Below, piece after piece: positions 654 through 4,296 of a DNA stretch of 12,315 bases. Origin of the DNA: an uncultured Dietzia sp. (GTDB taxonomy: Bacteria > Actinomycetota > Actinomycetes > Mycobacteriales > Mycobacteriaceae); NCBI GenBank assembly GCA_946570335.1, contig CAMNYG010000013.1, forward strand, positions 1-12,315, given 5' to 3'. Position numbers and translations under genes: made by a program. Each line of letters opens with the position of its first letter. Position 1 is the first letter of the stretch. Under the pieces are notes generated by a model. The model made no database searches and was not told the DNA's origin. It saw only the letters and a program-made list of their open reading frames with translations.

Positions 654-659
654 GCTCCG

Positions 660-665
660 AGTATC
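660..665 (-). promoter_or_regulatory. Possible -10 element for the amidohydrolase-like gene
   Basis: On the minus strand GATACT lies 6 nt before ATG 653. It keeps the A at position 2 and T at position 6 of the actinobacterial TANNNT consensus but not the first T. Transcription would begin almost at the start codon, giving a leaderless mRNA. No clear -35 is visible. This is weak evidence on its own; it is supported mainly by the same arrangement at other starts in the window. Confidence 0.25.
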
Positions 666-712
666 CCCGAGTGCGACCGGTCCCATGGAACCCGACCACC
701 CGGAGGGCTGAT

Positions 713-718
713 TAGGCT
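713..718 (+). promoter_or_regulatory. -10 element of a likely leaderless promoter for the cobG remnant
   Basis: TAGGCT fits the TANNNT -10 consensus and ends 8 nt before ATG 727. The predicted transcription start is about 724-727, at or within a few bases of the start codon. No Shine-Dalgarno sequence lies at a useful distance, which agrees with leaderless translation. No convincing -35 hexamer is seen around 690-695. Confidence 0.4.
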
Positions 719-726
719 TCTCACCC

Positions 727-1701
727 ATGACGGACCACGACCACCCCGCCGGCGACGATGACAGCTCCCCCGGGAACTCTTCCGGCGATCTGGAAGGAAC
801 TGGTGGCCGCGCCCGACTGGGGTTCCCCGGTGGCCGACTGCGACCCGCAGACTGGACGGCGTTGGCGCAGCTCGCCGCCGAGCATTCCGGTCACCTGCAG
901 CTGTCCTACGGGGGAGTCGTGCAGATCCCCGGGGCACAGGACGAGAACAGCCTCCGGGAACGCGCGCAGGCTGCCGGCCTCACCTCGCGGCTCGTGCACG
1001 AAACGGGCCGCACCATCCTCGCCTCTCCCCTGGCCGGACGACTGCCCGGCCGGAACGACCTGGGGGATCTGCCCGAGCGGCTCGACGCCGCCCTCGACGC
1101 GCACCAGGACGCATCGTCGCTGGCCGCACCCGTCGTGTTCGGGTTCGACGACGGCTCCGGGGACGTGCTCGCACACGGGCCCGACCTGGCGGCGGAGGCC
1201 GGCCCGGAGGACGGGATGGCCCGAATCCACGCAGGGGGACACGACACCGGACTCCGGACCTCGATCGCCGACGTGGTGTCCGTCCTCGTCGATGCCGTGG
1301 CGGGGCTGAGCCGCGCCGCGGAACGGCCCGCGACGGTGAACTCGTCCAGCGTGATGCACGACCTCGTCGTCACACTCTCCGACCACCCGCTGACCACCCG
1401 CACCGACCTCACCGCCTCCGGCGCGCCCACCGGGCGCGACGAGGTGCCACCGGTGGGGTGGGTCGACACCCTCGACGGGCTCGTCACCCTCCTGGCGGTC
1501 GTGGCCGACGGGGTGGTCCCCGCCCGACTCGCCGAGTTCCTCGGCGCCATCGAGCGGCCCAGCACCATCTCGGCCGACCGCGTGATCGGCCTCCACGGAC
1601 TCACTGAGGGGATGGCGGAGCAGGTCGTGCGGGTACTCGCCCCGATGGGATTGGTGTTCGACGCGACCTCCCCCTGGGTCCGGAGGCACCCCGAGACCTG
1701 A
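727..1701 (+). CDS. cobG: Truncated, cysteine-free CobG-like protein (precorrin-3B synthase remnant)
   Basis: 324 residues. It resembles CobG, a siroheme and [4Fe-4S] enzyme of the aerobic cobalamin pathway that converts precorrin-3A to precorrin-3B. Recognisable parts are the ferredoxin-like half-domain (about 29-85), the ASPLAGR segment (99-105), the VFGFDDGSGDV stretch (137-147) and the second ferredoxin-like half-domain (about 241-319, PPVGWV to SPWVRR). In CobG the SPW motif is followed by the ACTGxPGC segment that supplies iron-sulfur ligands. Here the protein ends six residues after SPW, and it contains no cysteine anywhere. The usual arginine of the first half-domain is also missing (LSYGGVVQ, 59-66). 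Ordinary CobG catalysis is therefore unlikely. It faces the CobM-CobK fusion, without cobH or cobIJ between them. Homology is fairly sure; function is unknown. Confidence 0.72.
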   Translation: MTDHDHPAGDDDSSPGNSSGDLEGTGGRARLGFPGGRLRPADWTALAQLAAEHSGHLQLSYGGVVQIPGAQDENSLRERAQAAGLTSRLVHETGRTILASPLAGRLPGRNDLGDLPERLDAALDAHQDASSLAAPVVFGFDDGSGDVLAHGPDLAAEAGPEDGMARIHAGGHDTGLRTSIADVVSVLVDAVAGLSRAAERPATVNSSSVMHDLVVTLSDHPLTTRTDLTASGAPTGRDEVPPVGWVDTLDGLVTLLAVVADGVVPARLAEFLGAIERPSTISADRVIGLHGLTEGMAEQVVRVLAPMGLVFDATSPWVRRHPET

Positions 1702-1749
1702 ACCGTGGCCGGCCCGGGCTCACACCGTCGGCAGCCTTGCGGCCACGGT
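1702..1749. terminator. 10-bp inverted repeat between convergent genes, candidate bidirectional terminator
   Basis: ACCGTGGCCG at 1702-1711 and its exact reverse complement at 1740-1749 could form a perfect 10-bp GC-rich stem with a 28-nt loop. It starts directly after the stop codon of the cobG remnant and lies 30 bp from the stop of the convergent CobM-CobK gene, so it could end transcripts from both sides. There is no T-run on either strand, and the loop is longer than is typical. Confidence 0.45.
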
Positions 1750-1779
1750 GCGGCCGGGCAGGTTCGACCGACACCGGGG

Positions 1780-3033
1780 TCACCGTGAGCCGAACCGACT
1801 GACCAACCAGCGGGCCGCATCCGGCACGGTGTACACGGTCTCCGGTCTCGTCTCTACTTCTGTGGCGAAATGCTGTGGTCGGTCGACCATCACCACGGGG
1901 ATGTGCAGTGCACGGGCCGCCTCGAGCTTCGCGGCCGTGGACTCCCCGCCGCTGTCGCGGGTCACCAGCACATCGATGCGGTGACGGGCCATGAGAGTCC
2001 GCTCGGCATCGACGCCGAACGGGCCCCGGTCCAGAACCAGCAGGTATCGCTGCGGGAGGGGGCCGGGTGGCGGCTCGGAACACCTGATCAGGTATGAACC
2101 GCGCTCATCTCCGGCGAAGGCGGAGGCACCGTGCTTGCCCACCGTGAGCATCGGCCGACGGAAGCGCTGTCGAACCACCGCCACCGCGGTCTGCAGGTCC
2201 GGGACACGAATCCACTCGTCCCCGGCCGTTTCCTGCCATTCGGGGCGCTCCAGTCGCAGAAGAGGCACGCCGGTCGCAGCGGCGGAGTGGGCCGCGTCGA
2301 CGGAGATCTTCCGGGCGAACGGGTCGGTCGCATCTATCAGTGCGTTCACCGAGTTCTCCCGGAGCCAGCGAGCGAGTTCGGAGGCCCCACCGAACTCGCC
2401 GATCCGGACCTCGCCCCGGGGTAGCCGTGGCCTGGCGATCTTGCCCGCCAACGAGGTCACCACGTCCAGGCCGGCGGTGACCAACAGGTCCGCGAGCCGG
2501 CGGGCCTCGCCGGTACCACCCAGAACGAGGATCAGTCCCGGGTCTCCGGGCGTCGGTGACGCACCGGCTCGGTCCGCCACACCGTCCTCCCCCCGGCCGT
2601 CGACCTGCGTATCGGACCCGCTCATGAGGCTTGGCGATGTCGTGTGAGCCGGGTGCGGGATGCCGGGGACGAGTTCCCAGGTGATCCCGCTCGCGTCGAA
2701 GACCTCCGTGAGCGTCGGGGTCTCGTCATGCTGGAGCGGGTCGCCGGCGAACAGGTGGACCACCCTGTCCCCCCTGCTGAGTGCGGCGCGGATCTCGTCG
2801 AGGATCTGGCCGGTCGACAGTGAGGCGGTGTCCACGACCCGTGCCGTGGGCGGGCACAGCGCCAGCGCCTCGGACGGCTCTTCCGCACGGGCGTGGAGAC
2901 ACGTACCGCTCATCGCGATGAGGCGCGAGGCCCGGACGGTGAGCAGATCGACGGGGCCTGGGCCGACGCCCACCAGGTGTACGGCGACCGGTGCGTCCCT
3001 GGGCATGCCGTCCGGGATCGTGGCGCCGCTCAC
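1780..3033 (-). CDS. cobK: Fusion of a half-length CobM-type methyltransferase domain and a CobK-type precorrin-6A reductase
   Basis: 417 residues from GTG 3033, whose GTGA overlaps the stop of the upstream reductase; ATG 3006 is an alternative giving 408 residues. Residues 18-126 match the N-terminal half of CobM (precorrin-4 C11-methyltransferase): VHLVGVGPG at 18-26, LTVRASR, CPPTARVVDTA at 60-70, GDPL at 97-100, VPGIPH at 122-127. The C-terminal half, which completes the SAM and substrate site, is absent. A Gly/Asp/Ser-rich linker (128-166) leads into a complete CobK-like reductase (167-417) that would use NADPH to reduce precorrin-6A: LGGTGEARRL, SLAGK, GEFGG, SGGESTAAKL. Two motifs depart from CobK: DATHPF reads DATDPF (234-239) and KNSGG reads RDSGG (359-363). 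In M. tuberculosis cobM directly precedes cobK, so an in-frame deletion explains the fusion. A separate CobK start at ATG 2625 is possible but has no ribosome-binding site. Confidence 0.75.
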   Translation of the reverse strand: MSGATIPDGMPRDAPVAVHLVGVGPGPVDLLTVRASRLIAMSGTCLHARAEEPSEALALCPPTARVVDTASLSTGQILDEIRAALSRGDRVVHLFAGDPLQHDETPTLTEVFDASGITWELVPGIPHPAHTTSPSLMSGSDTQVDGRGEDGVADRAGASPTPGDPGLILVLGGTGEARRLADLLVTAGLDVVTSLAGKIARPRLPRGEVRIGEFGGASELARWLRENSVNALIDATDPFARKISVDAAHSAAATGVPLLRLERPEWQETAGDEWIRVPDLQTAVAVVRQRFRRPMLTVGKHGASAFAGDERGSYLIRCSEPPPGPLPQRYLLVLDRGPFGVDAERTLMARHRIDVLVTRDSGGESTAAKLEAARALHIPVVMVDRPQHFATEVETRPETVYTVPDAARWLVSRFGSR

Positions 3034-3806
3034 CGGGGCATCCGTCGCCAGATCGGCTGCGGGACGAGCCGGGCGACGGCGAACATCACCCGCAACTGCC
3101 ACGGAATCCACACGACCCCGGACCGGCGGGCCACGACACGGTCCACCACCGCGGCGGCCACCTGTTCCGGAGTCGACGAGAACGGTGCCGGATCCATGCC
3201 GGCGGTCATCCGGCCGATCACGAACCCGGGCCGCGGGATGATGAGTGTGACGCCGGTGCCGTGCAGGGCATCCGCCATTCCGGATGCGAAACCGTCCAGG
3301 CCTGCCTTGGCCGAACCGTAGACGTAATTGGCCCGCCGGACGCGTTGCCCGGCGACGGAGGAGAACGCCACGAGTACACCGCTGCGCCGAGACTTCATCC
3401 GTTCCGCGAGGACGGTCAGTAGCGCTGCCTGGGCCACGAAGTCGGTGTGCAGGATCTGTGCGGCGGCGTCGGCGTCACGCTCTGCGACCTCCTGGTCCCC
3501 GAGAATCCCGAACGCGAGCACCGCGATGTCGACGGGACCCACCCGGGATTCGATCTCGTCCACGACCCCGGCGTGGGAGGACAGGTCGTCGGCGTCGAAG
3601 TCCACGGTCTCGACTGCGGTCGCACCCGCGGTCCACAGCGGCGCGACCGGTGACGAGTCCCCTCCGGGCCTGGACGCCAGGACGATGGTGCGGCCGGGTG
3701 CGAGGCGGCGCGCCACGGCCAGGCCTATCTCACTGCGGCCGCCGAACACGACGACCACCTCACCACCGGGCCGCTGCCGGTCAGACGACGATGCAGGTGT
3801 GGGCAT
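3030..3806 (-). CDS. DprE2-like short-chain dehydrogenase/reductase
   Basis: 258 residues from ATG 3806, with GGGAG 9 nt upstream (3816-3820). The Rossmann dinucleotide site reads FGGRSEIG (21-28), and AFG (98-100) replaces the usual NAG. The catalytic serine lies at 149-150, and Tyr163 and Lys167 form the YxxxK pair (YGSAK). PRPGFV (191-196) is the loop after the active site. The GGxSEIG signature and the tryptophan-rich, partly hydrophobic C-terminus (WIPWQLRV to PQPIWRRMPR) are typical of mycobacterial relatives of DprE2, the keto-reductase that finishes decaprenylphosphoryl-arabinose synthesis for the cell wall. From memory it corresponds to Rv2073c, whose own substrate is not established. 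It is divergent from the split-barrel gene and shares a 4-nt overlap with the downstream CobM-CobK fusion, so the two are probably cotranscribed and translationally coupled. In M. tuberculosis cobL would follow; it is missing here. Confidence 0.85.
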   Translation of the reverse strand: MPTPASSSDRQRPGGEVVVVFGGRSEIGLAVARRLAPGRTIVLASRPGGDSSPVAPLWTAGATAVETVDFDADDLSSHAGVVDEIESRVGPVDIAVLAFGILGDQEVAERDADAAAQILHTDFVAQAALLTVLAERMKSRRSGVLVAFSSVAGQRVRRANYVYGSAKAGLDGFASGMADALHGTGVTLIIPRPGFVIGRMTAGMDPAPFSSTPEQVAAAVVDRVVARRSGVVWIPWQLRVMFAVARLVPQPIWRRMPR

Positions 3807-3869
3807 GCGCTCAGTCTCCCACGCGTCCACTCGCCCACGGGCTCCGTGGGCCACCCCGGGCGGCTGTGG

Positions 3870-3875
3870 CAGGCT
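3870..3875 (+). promoter_or_regulatory. Possible -10 element for the split-barrel oxidoreductase gene
   Basis: CAGGCT lies 7 nt before ATG 3883, one base from the TAGGCT seen before the cobG remnant and at nearly the same distance. No Shine-Dalgarno sequence is visible before the ATG, so a leaderless mRNA starting at about 3882 is the simplest reading. The first base departs from TANNNT, so confidence is low. Confidence 0.3.
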
Positions 3876-3882
3876 CGGCCAC

Positions 3883-4296
3883 ATGGCACGCACCCTGGCA
3901 GAGATCTCCGACGAGGCGCACGAGTTCCTGTCGACCTATCACCTGGGCACGCTCACCACCCTGCGCACGGACGGCTCCCCGCACGTCGTGGCCGTGGGCT
4001 TCACCGTGGACCTCGACAGCGGGCTCGCGCGCGTCATCACGACGAAGGGCTCCCAGAAGGCGCGCAACGCCGCGCGAGGCGGCCGCGCCGCGGTCTCCCA
4101 CGTCGACGGCGGACGCTGGCTAACCTTCGAAGGGCCCGCCCGGTTGCTCACCGACGCCCCCGCGGTCCGGGAGGCCGAGCGACGGTACGCGCTGCGCTAC
4201 CGGGAGCCGCGTCCGAATCCCGAGCGCGTCGTGGTGGCGATCGAGGTGGACCGGGTTCTCGGCTCCGCCCGGATGTTCACCGGCGTCCGGGGGTGA
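3883..4296 (+). CDS. F420/flavin-type split-barrel oxidoreductase, Rv2074-like (possible F420H2-dependent biliverdin reductase)
   Basis: 137 residues, the same length I recall for M. tuberculosis Rv2074. It is a small pyridoxamine-5'-phosphate-oxidase-like split barrel. Visible family segments are FLSTYHLGTLTTLR (15-28), SPHVVAVGFTVD (32-43), ARVITTKGSQKARNA (49-63, the likely cofactor-phosphate-binding region), GRWLTFEG (77-84) and YREPRPNPERVVV (106-118). Rv2074 has been reported to reduce biliverdin to bilirubin with reduced F420, so the same role is plausible here, acting as a cytoplasmic dimer; the substrate cannot be confirmed by reading. ATG 3883 is chosen because family similarity begins there, although the frame stays open further upstream. 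It is divergent from the DprE2-like reductase (76-bp spacer), the same arrangement as Rv2073c/Rv2074, and converges on the peptidase gene across a strong hairpin. Confidence 0.87.
   Translation: MARTLAEISDEAHEFLSTYHLGTLTTLRTDGSPHVVAVGFTVDLDSGLARVITTKGSQKARNAARGGRAAVSHVDGGRWLTFEGPARLLTDAPAVREAERRYALRYREPRPNPERVVVAIEVDRVLGSARMFTGVRG

Follow-up and report, generated by a model that had tools for sequence, protein, structure and literature searches.

Truncated CobG and fused CobM-CobK proteins of a collapsed Dietzia cobalamin locus as probable pseudoenzymes under purifying selection

Why do truncated cobalamin (B12) genes persist in open frames at a locus from which most of the pathway has gone? 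This question is raised by a stretch of 12,315 nucleotides from an uncultured Dietzia sp. (GenBank assembly GCA_946570335.1, contig CAMNYG010000013.1), referred to here in its entirety as the window. Two convergent genes in it encode a shortened relative of precorrin-3B synthase (CobG') and a fusion of the N-terminal domain of CobM to CobK (CobM'-CobK). The assembly of origin (G000) is incomplete (2.1 Mb, 64.6% complete), and the nearest of the named records found was Candidatus Dietzia intestinigallinarum, at 89% over the CobM-CobK protein. The explanation favoured here, with a probability of about 0.6 for the statement as a whole, is that the remnants are pseudoenzymes retained by purifying selection. 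That they are pseudoenzymes is, taken alone, considered very likely.

The collapsed locus and the present location of the B12 genes

The full native locus was found in two genomes, G007 and G022, where cobG-cobH-cobIJ converge on a cobM-cobK fusion, cobL and an SDR gene. Compared with these, the window lacks three genes outright (cobH, cobIJ and cobL), and its CobG and CobM have lost the end and the second half, respectively, which is the collapse that the original prediction, made from the sequence of the window, had described. The position of the short spacer between the two window genes is occupied in the intact loci by the end of cobG, cobH and cobIJ. The fused reading frame had been taken for a product of the collapse; as a full-length CobM-CobK fusion is already present in G007 and G022, the fusion predates it. 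G022 (L072, L106) has a very long branch in the flanking genes, with 4.57 changes per column, and may belong outside the genus.

Relatives of both genes were present in all 15 Dietzia genomes that were at least 90% complete. The native locus could be read in 18 genomes. CobG was truncated in 14 of them and intact in four (G003, which is D. aurantiaca, G007, G021 and G022), and CobM-CobK was a remnant in 16 and intact in only G007 and G022. Intact copies are therefore not the norm. Five further Dietzia genomes (78-87% complete), for which no complete native locus was in hand, were left uncounted. A near full-length but degenerate CobM remains in G012, G013 and G016, and the other remnants retain domain I.

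Loss of the pathway by the genus, which had been read into the collapse, is not supported. Among the 15 good Dietzia genomes, cobH and cobN were each found in 14, outside the native locus except in G007 and G022. For all 23 Dietzia genomes, cobH lay outside the native locus in 15 and within it in G007 and G022, and no match was obtained in six, five of which are at most 85% complete. The remaining one, G015, is 99% complete and gave no cobH and no cobN match; both remnant genes are still present in it. A piece of cobN was found in the window's own assembly. The second clusters include cobIJ, cobL, cobM, cobK and cobN, and that of G009 also holds BluB-, CobO- and CobQ-like genes (read from translations, with no hidden Markov model (HMM) run). 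Seven loci were scanned for riboswitches. Cobalamin riboswitches were detected in three second-cluster loci (L091, L092 and L176); control of the native locus by such an element was considered and rejected, as the window, L071, L079 and L159 gave no hit exceeding the gathering score. Beside cobK2 in L092 (3669-3725), an Rfam match to the Mycobacterium small RNA Ms_IGR-8 was barely above the gathering score.

These distributions suggest that the ancestral Dietzia locus would have held the precorrin genes in an order like that of M. tuberculosis, surviving in G007 and G022. In most other Dietzia a second cob cluster lies elsewhere, bearing cobalamin riboswitches in the one that was scanned, and the native genes have been cut down.

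Selection and residue loss in the remnants

The ratio of nonsynonymous to synonymous substitution rates (omega) was estimated with our own implementation of the GY94-F3x4 likelihood, which reproduced IQ-TREE likelihoods, on 15 Dietzia remnants for CobK and CobM' and on 13 truncated taxa for the two parts of CobG'. Omega was 0.066 for CobK, 0.102 for CobM', 0.156 for the N-part of CobG' and 0.019 for its C-part, compared with 0.061, 0.056 and 0.045 for the neighbouring SDR, exonuclease and PPOX genes. When groups A (10 taxa) and B (3 taxa) were analysed alone, the CobG' C-part gave 0.015 and 0.017, respectively. Low values were also obtained on single branches, both for G015 (CobG' C-part 0.012, CobK 0.073) and for the window (CobK 0.054, CobM' 0.134, CobG' C-part 0.035). 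All remnant parts are thus under protein-level selection across the genus, CobK as strongly as its neighbours, and the ratio near 1 that the original prediction had named as a sign of simple decay was not seen there.

A constraint on the DNA or on an antisense product, rather than on the protein, could also conserve a sequence, and antisense open reading frames (ORFs) do overlap both genes. This was judged highly improbable. For five middle-distance pairs, the most conserved 75 codons had proportions of synonymous differences of 0.34-0.41 (flanking genes 0.27-0.56) and of nonsynonymous differences of 0.03-0.09. Synonymous divergence in the CobG' C-part is thus normal and like that of the flanking genes, which indicates that the constraint acts on the protein; in addition, no Rfam match was found in the window.

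The CobK part of the fusion exceeded the cut-offs of NF005968 (287 bits, cut-off 231) and TIGR00715 (143 bits, cut-off 129.85), and its AlphaFold2 (AF2) model matches the fold of 4x7g. In R. capsulatus CobK, Lys136, Arg153, Arg173, Lys196 and Lys206 hold the tetrapyrrole and His73 packs on the nicotinamide (PMC4663756). The 16 Dietzia remnants were compared at these sites with 21 other CobK rows (2 native intact, 11 second-cluster and 8 outside). Positions 34, 73, 137, 153, 173, 196 and 206 were Arg, His, Gln, Arg, Arg, Lys and Lys throughout the 21, where His73 in the 11 second-cluster rows follows from the way the pattern was constructed. The remnants differ chiefly at His73 and Lys196 (Table 1), and Gln137 is changed in 11 of them. 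Arg153 was kept in 16, Arg173 in 15 and Lys206 in 11; position 136 is Lys or Arg in all 16, and the FGG of the NADPH 2'-phosphate loop is present in 13. In the window, His73 is Asp, Lys196 is Arg, Arg34 is Lys and Gln137 is His; the five tetrapyrrole positions (136 Lys, 153 Arg, 173 Arg, 196 Arg, 206 Lys) are all basic, with one substituted. Among 120 listed homologues, sites 73 and 196 read Asp/Arg in 66, His/Lys in 40 and His/Arg in six, and were unread at one or both in eight.

The N-terminal part of the fusion matched positions 1-110 of the 247 of TIGR01465 (65 bits, cut-off 259.65) and so falls short of the two domains of CobM. By structure alignment, the model of CobM' contains domain I only, with the GxGPG loop present.

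The CobG' protein scored below the cut-off of TIGR02435 (E 1.1e-21, 77.2 bits, cut-off 234.8) and contains no cysteine. CobG was aligned for 20 intact and 64 truncated sequences, and 88 positions were conserved in at least 90% of the intact ones. Fifty-two of the 88 are kept in at least 80% of the truncated sequences and 36 are not. Cys14, Asn64, Asn96 and Cys323 are kept in none of the 64, the two asparagines, of the SRGN loop and of VRN, being present in at least 90% of the intact set. The iron-sulphur (Fe-S) tail with its C-terminal cysteines is absent from 14 of the 18 Dietzia native copies, the window's included. Confident domains were predicted by AF2 for the remnants, and the predicted fold of CobG' is siroheme-reductase-like. 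A search of the PDB with the window CobG' alone returned nothing at E 10, and profile A2 matched nitrite and sulfite reductases.

Several points weigh against retention as pseudoenzymes. Omega = 1 was rejected for all genes with twice the log-likelihood difference (2dlnL) at least 560, a value that is inflated because the null was fitted without re-fitting single branch lengths. On the window branch the N-part of CobG' had an omega of 0.715 (2dlnL 2.8), indistinguishable from neutral. Pairwise NG86 ratios exceeded those of the model (CobK 0.08-0.32, CobM' 0.23-0.59, CobG' N-part 0.23-0.72); together with the CobG' C-part (0.05-0.23), all were in the same direction as the model. The CobM'-CobK linker of G010 (D. 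massiliensis, L086) contains a frameshift, real or an assembly error, with each domain open alone, and the halves of CobG' lie in different frames in G093, of genus g13. His73 is retained by the remnants of G014 and G015. The loss of Lys206 in five of 16 remnants means that the tetrapyrrole site is not wholly kept, and Lys196 to Arg preserves charge and so does not prove loss of activity. The B12-gene loss in G015 may be old or recent. Finally, the intact locus of G007 (L071) is also riboswitch-free, so the absence of a riboswitch does not set the remnants apart.

The two linker frameshifts and the relaxed N-part on the window branch are the kind of change that plain decay would leave, the gene ends staying open since stops are rare at this GC content. 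Openness is also cheap here, as the window holds many long antisense ORFs, some overlapping both remnant genes. The lengths originally given for the open frames, 324 and 417 codons, hold; their openness is, for the same reason, weak evidence of retention, and the evidence that counts is at the codon level. Decay is nevertheless very unlikely, given an omega of 0.019-0.156 over 13 to 15 species with CobK as low as its neighbours, and frames that are open through both domains in 15 of 16 CobM'-CobK remnants and in 14 of 14 CobG'. Frameshifts were thus confined to one of the 16 and none of the 14 Dietzia copies. An apparent stop in G011 was dismissed because it is located upstream of the start codon; CobM' is open there to the contig end.

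The coordinates of the remnants and their neighbours are given in Table 1. A protein record, P0121, is equal in length to the window CobM'-CobK. The farther genes are an exonuclease, helY, tatC/A and pafC/B, assigned by reading translations; the SDR and the F420-dependent reductase were assigned by HMMs.

Table 1. Features of the remnant locus in the window
Feature	Position	Strand	Remarks
CobG', truncated cysteine-free CobG-like pseudoenzyme (probable)	727..1701	+	324 aa
CobG' second ferredoxin-like half-domain, VGW...FDATSPW	1453..1677	+	most constrained part; omega 0.019 (13 truncated taxa)
Spacer	1702..1779	.	between convergent stop codons; from junction comparison with intact loci L071, L072
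CobM'-CobK fusion pseudoenzyme (probable)	1780..3033	-	417 aa (protein 1783-3033), GTG start 3033-3031
CobK domain, complete fold	1783..2541	-	
CobK Lys196 to Arg	1957..1959	-	Arg in 16/16 remnants, Lys in 21/21 other CobK rows
CobK His73 to Asp (DATHPF to DATDPF)	2323..2325	-	14/16 remnants
Low-confidence linker in place of missing CobM domain II	2542..2649	-	model confidence (pLDDT) <50, residues 129-152 of 409-aa construct
CobM', N-terminal domain alone	2650..2994	-	
GTGA overlap, CobM'-CobK start / SDR stop	3030..3033	-	from the sequence and relatives
SDR, DprE2-like	3030..3893	-	NF053786 249.5 bits vs cut-off 250; start codon provisional; upstream partner in presumed operon
F420-dependent PPOX-class reductase	3883..4296	+	TIGR03618 94.2 bits, cut-off 79.05

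Precorrin-3B synthesis and recurrence of the truncation

The second clusters encode another CobG (CobG2; L061-L070, L060 and L132), which in all 12 Dietzia read ends in VTPWRGVLxV (VTPWRGVVVV in G006), has no Fe-S cysteines and lacks the end of the second half-domain. When those genomes were searched with the intact CobG, no additional CobG came up. If only genomes of 90% completeness or more are counted, CobG2 is missing from the four whose native CobG is intact and occurs in 10 of the 11 with CobG'. Replacement of CobG by CobZ was considered and rejected: no match over the cut-off was obtained in 23 genomes, and weaker matches occurred in all 23 and also in 11 of 14 controls.

The remnants might then still serve B12 synthesis, with CobK' as a working reductase or with CobG' and the Fe-S-less CobG2 as a split CobG, since CobG' conserves the very end of the half-domain that CobG2 lacks and no CobZ passed the cut-off. 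This was considered unlikely. G015 keeps both remnants and has no match to cobH, cobN or CobG2, a CobG2-type protein occurs in G037 with no CobG' match, and the Fe-S cysteines are on neither Dietzia piece. In g26 and g13, two other genera in which CobG' was found, it coexists with a second CobG with Fe-S cysteines elsewhere in all eight genomes looked at. The narrower proposal that CobG' supplies the missing half of CobG2 was accordingly left as no more than an alternative: the gaps match, but G015, G037 and the other genera speak against it. In G037, which belongs to another genus, the Fe-S-less CobG2-type protein (L170, 7352-8281) is the sole CobG match.

The same truncations recur among relatives. 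In genus g26 (7 genomes), genus g13 (4) and G067, a relative of CobG was found at the corresponding locus that stops 2 to about 20 residues past RVLAP[ML]G..FDA.SP. Twelve stretches were fetched from these genomes: 11 carry the SDR, and none of the 12 gave a match to cobH, cobIJ, cobM, cobK or cobL. As CobG' occurs in other genera without CobM'-CobK, a joint function of the two remnants is not required. Of the best 120 of 146 CobG homologues, 72 were truncated, 46 intact and two neither, and all 72 truncated ones end 11-24 residues past RVLAP.G. Selection was again evident in g26 (7 taxa), with an omega of 0.144 for CobG' and 0.049 for its C-part. The opposite truncation was seen in G115 (L171, 7156-7824), where a CobG of 223 aa has an internal deletion and retains the Fe-S tail.

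In the CobG tree the non-Dietzia truncated clade stands apart from Dietzia (98/94), some rows being long-branched. Within Dietzia, the distance from SPW to the CobK stop is 9 bp in seven genomes, 102-103 bp in G000 and G006, and 119 bp in G001. A single truncation in Dietzia was rejected by the flanking-gene tree (approximately unbiased test, p-AU 6.5e-6); the CobG tree permits a single origin, the truncated sequences grouping together in 34% of bootstrap trees. The trees also place G001 differently, with G000 and G006 in the CobG tree and with G003 in the flanking tree, and recombination could reconcile the two. Because of this conflict and the differing junctions, only at least two, probably three, origins of the CobG truncation are claimed from the sequences compared. 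The flanking tree also puts the intact G007 among remnant species (81/94, a placement that the long branches of G007 and G022 may affect); taken at face value, this would imply a repeated CobM-CobK collapse or a regain in G007.

Possible functions and comparison with known systems

In the original prediction the products were pseudo-enzymes retained for another job. The low ratios, the recurrence and the rarity of intact copies agree with this; the parts of the argument that concerned the fusion and the loss of the pathway do not stand. A changed reaction, such as that of an NADPH reductase of another tetrapyrrole, would make CobK' a catalyst rather than a non-catalytic binder. Its complete fold and the FGG in 13 of 16 remnants are consistent with this, as is its proximity to an F420-dependent reductase whose broad class includes the M. 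tuberculosis biliverdin reductase Rv2074. However, His73, Arg34, Gln137 and Lys196 are all altered in the window, domain II is missing from CobM' and the metal-binding cysteines from CobG', and this alternative seems quite unlikely.

In the remnants, CobG has lost its Fe-S end with many conserved polar and cysteine residues, and the folded reductase core, chiefly the second half-domain, has stayed. CobM has lost domain II, the part completing the methyltransferase. In CobK the fold is intact, and the loop for the NADPH 2'-phosphate (FGG in 13 of 16) and the majority of the basic contacts to the tetrapyrrole persist, with which tetrapyrrole binding would be compatible. CobM'-CobK could then bind an anionic tetrapyrrole, possibly together with NADPH, and yet not carry out the normal reduction of precorrin-6A; such binding is proposed tentatively, with less than even confidence. 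The earlier suggestion of joint action with the neighbouring reductase retains one structural hint, the GTGA start/stop overlap with the SDR gene in the window, through which the two may be translationally coupled.

For CobG', a TANNNT hexamer resembling a -10 element lies at 713..718(+), 8 nt upstream of the ATG. The motif was found 6-9 nt upstream of the CobG start in 18 of 18 Dietzia loci read (the start in G022 is uncertain), and at 7-9 nt upstream of only two of 217 window ATGs, that of CobG' among them. This placement suggests a leaderless transcript, from which a non-catalytic binding or scaffold protein might be made that acts via the second half-domain. More broadly, and with somewhat less than even confidence, it is possible that CobG of Mycobacteriales has a hidden second function, non-catalytic and B12-independent, which resides within the first ~317 residues (mainly within the second half-domain, of 75 residues) and was exposed by the collapse. 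If so, this moonlighting role is already present in intact CobG, and once another cluster carries B12 synthesis the Fe-S end and the active-site residues are discarded and the same fragment is kept.

Pseudoenzymes as such are known. What is unusual here is a B12 enzyme that has lost conserved residues of catalytic type, has been shortened to an identical end point in two lineages or more, and has an omega of 0.015-0.05 in its last part, and this points to a function tied to the fold of a tetrapyrrole enzyme. Among the open-licence papers listed by the literature searches, none dealt with a truncated CobG or an altered CobK, judged by title or abstract opening. Truncated or altered proteins are named precorrin-3B synthase or cobalt-precorrin-6A reductase in records P0003, P0007, P0074, P0155 and P0169, and such names can mislead the prediction of B12 producers. 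A natural series runs from D. aurantiaca and NCCP-2495, whose CobG is intact, through the collapsed species to G015, which has neither cobH nor cobN.

The M. tuberculosis locus, cobG-cobH-cobIJ / cobK-cobM-cobL-Rv2073c-Rv2074, has the same flanks as the window and a gene set shared by G007 and G022; in contrast to it, the window has collapsed to CobG' and CobM'-CobK. CobG' shares the fold (nitrite/sulfite reductase, NIR/SIR), locus and 52 of 88 conserved positions with precorrin-3B synthase (TIGR02435), and differs from it in lacking the Fe-S segment and the Cys-Pro-Gly start motif, in the loss of N64 and N96, and in a score below the equivalog cut-off. CobM' shares the N-terminal domain with its GxGPG loop with the precorrin-4 C11-methyltransferase CobM/CbiF (PDB 3ndc, 1cbf), but without domain II it is half a catalytic unit. 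From the precorrin-6A reductase CobK (PDB 4x7g, 5c4n; PMC4663756), the window protein is set apart by the four substitutions given above and by its fusion to half a CobM.

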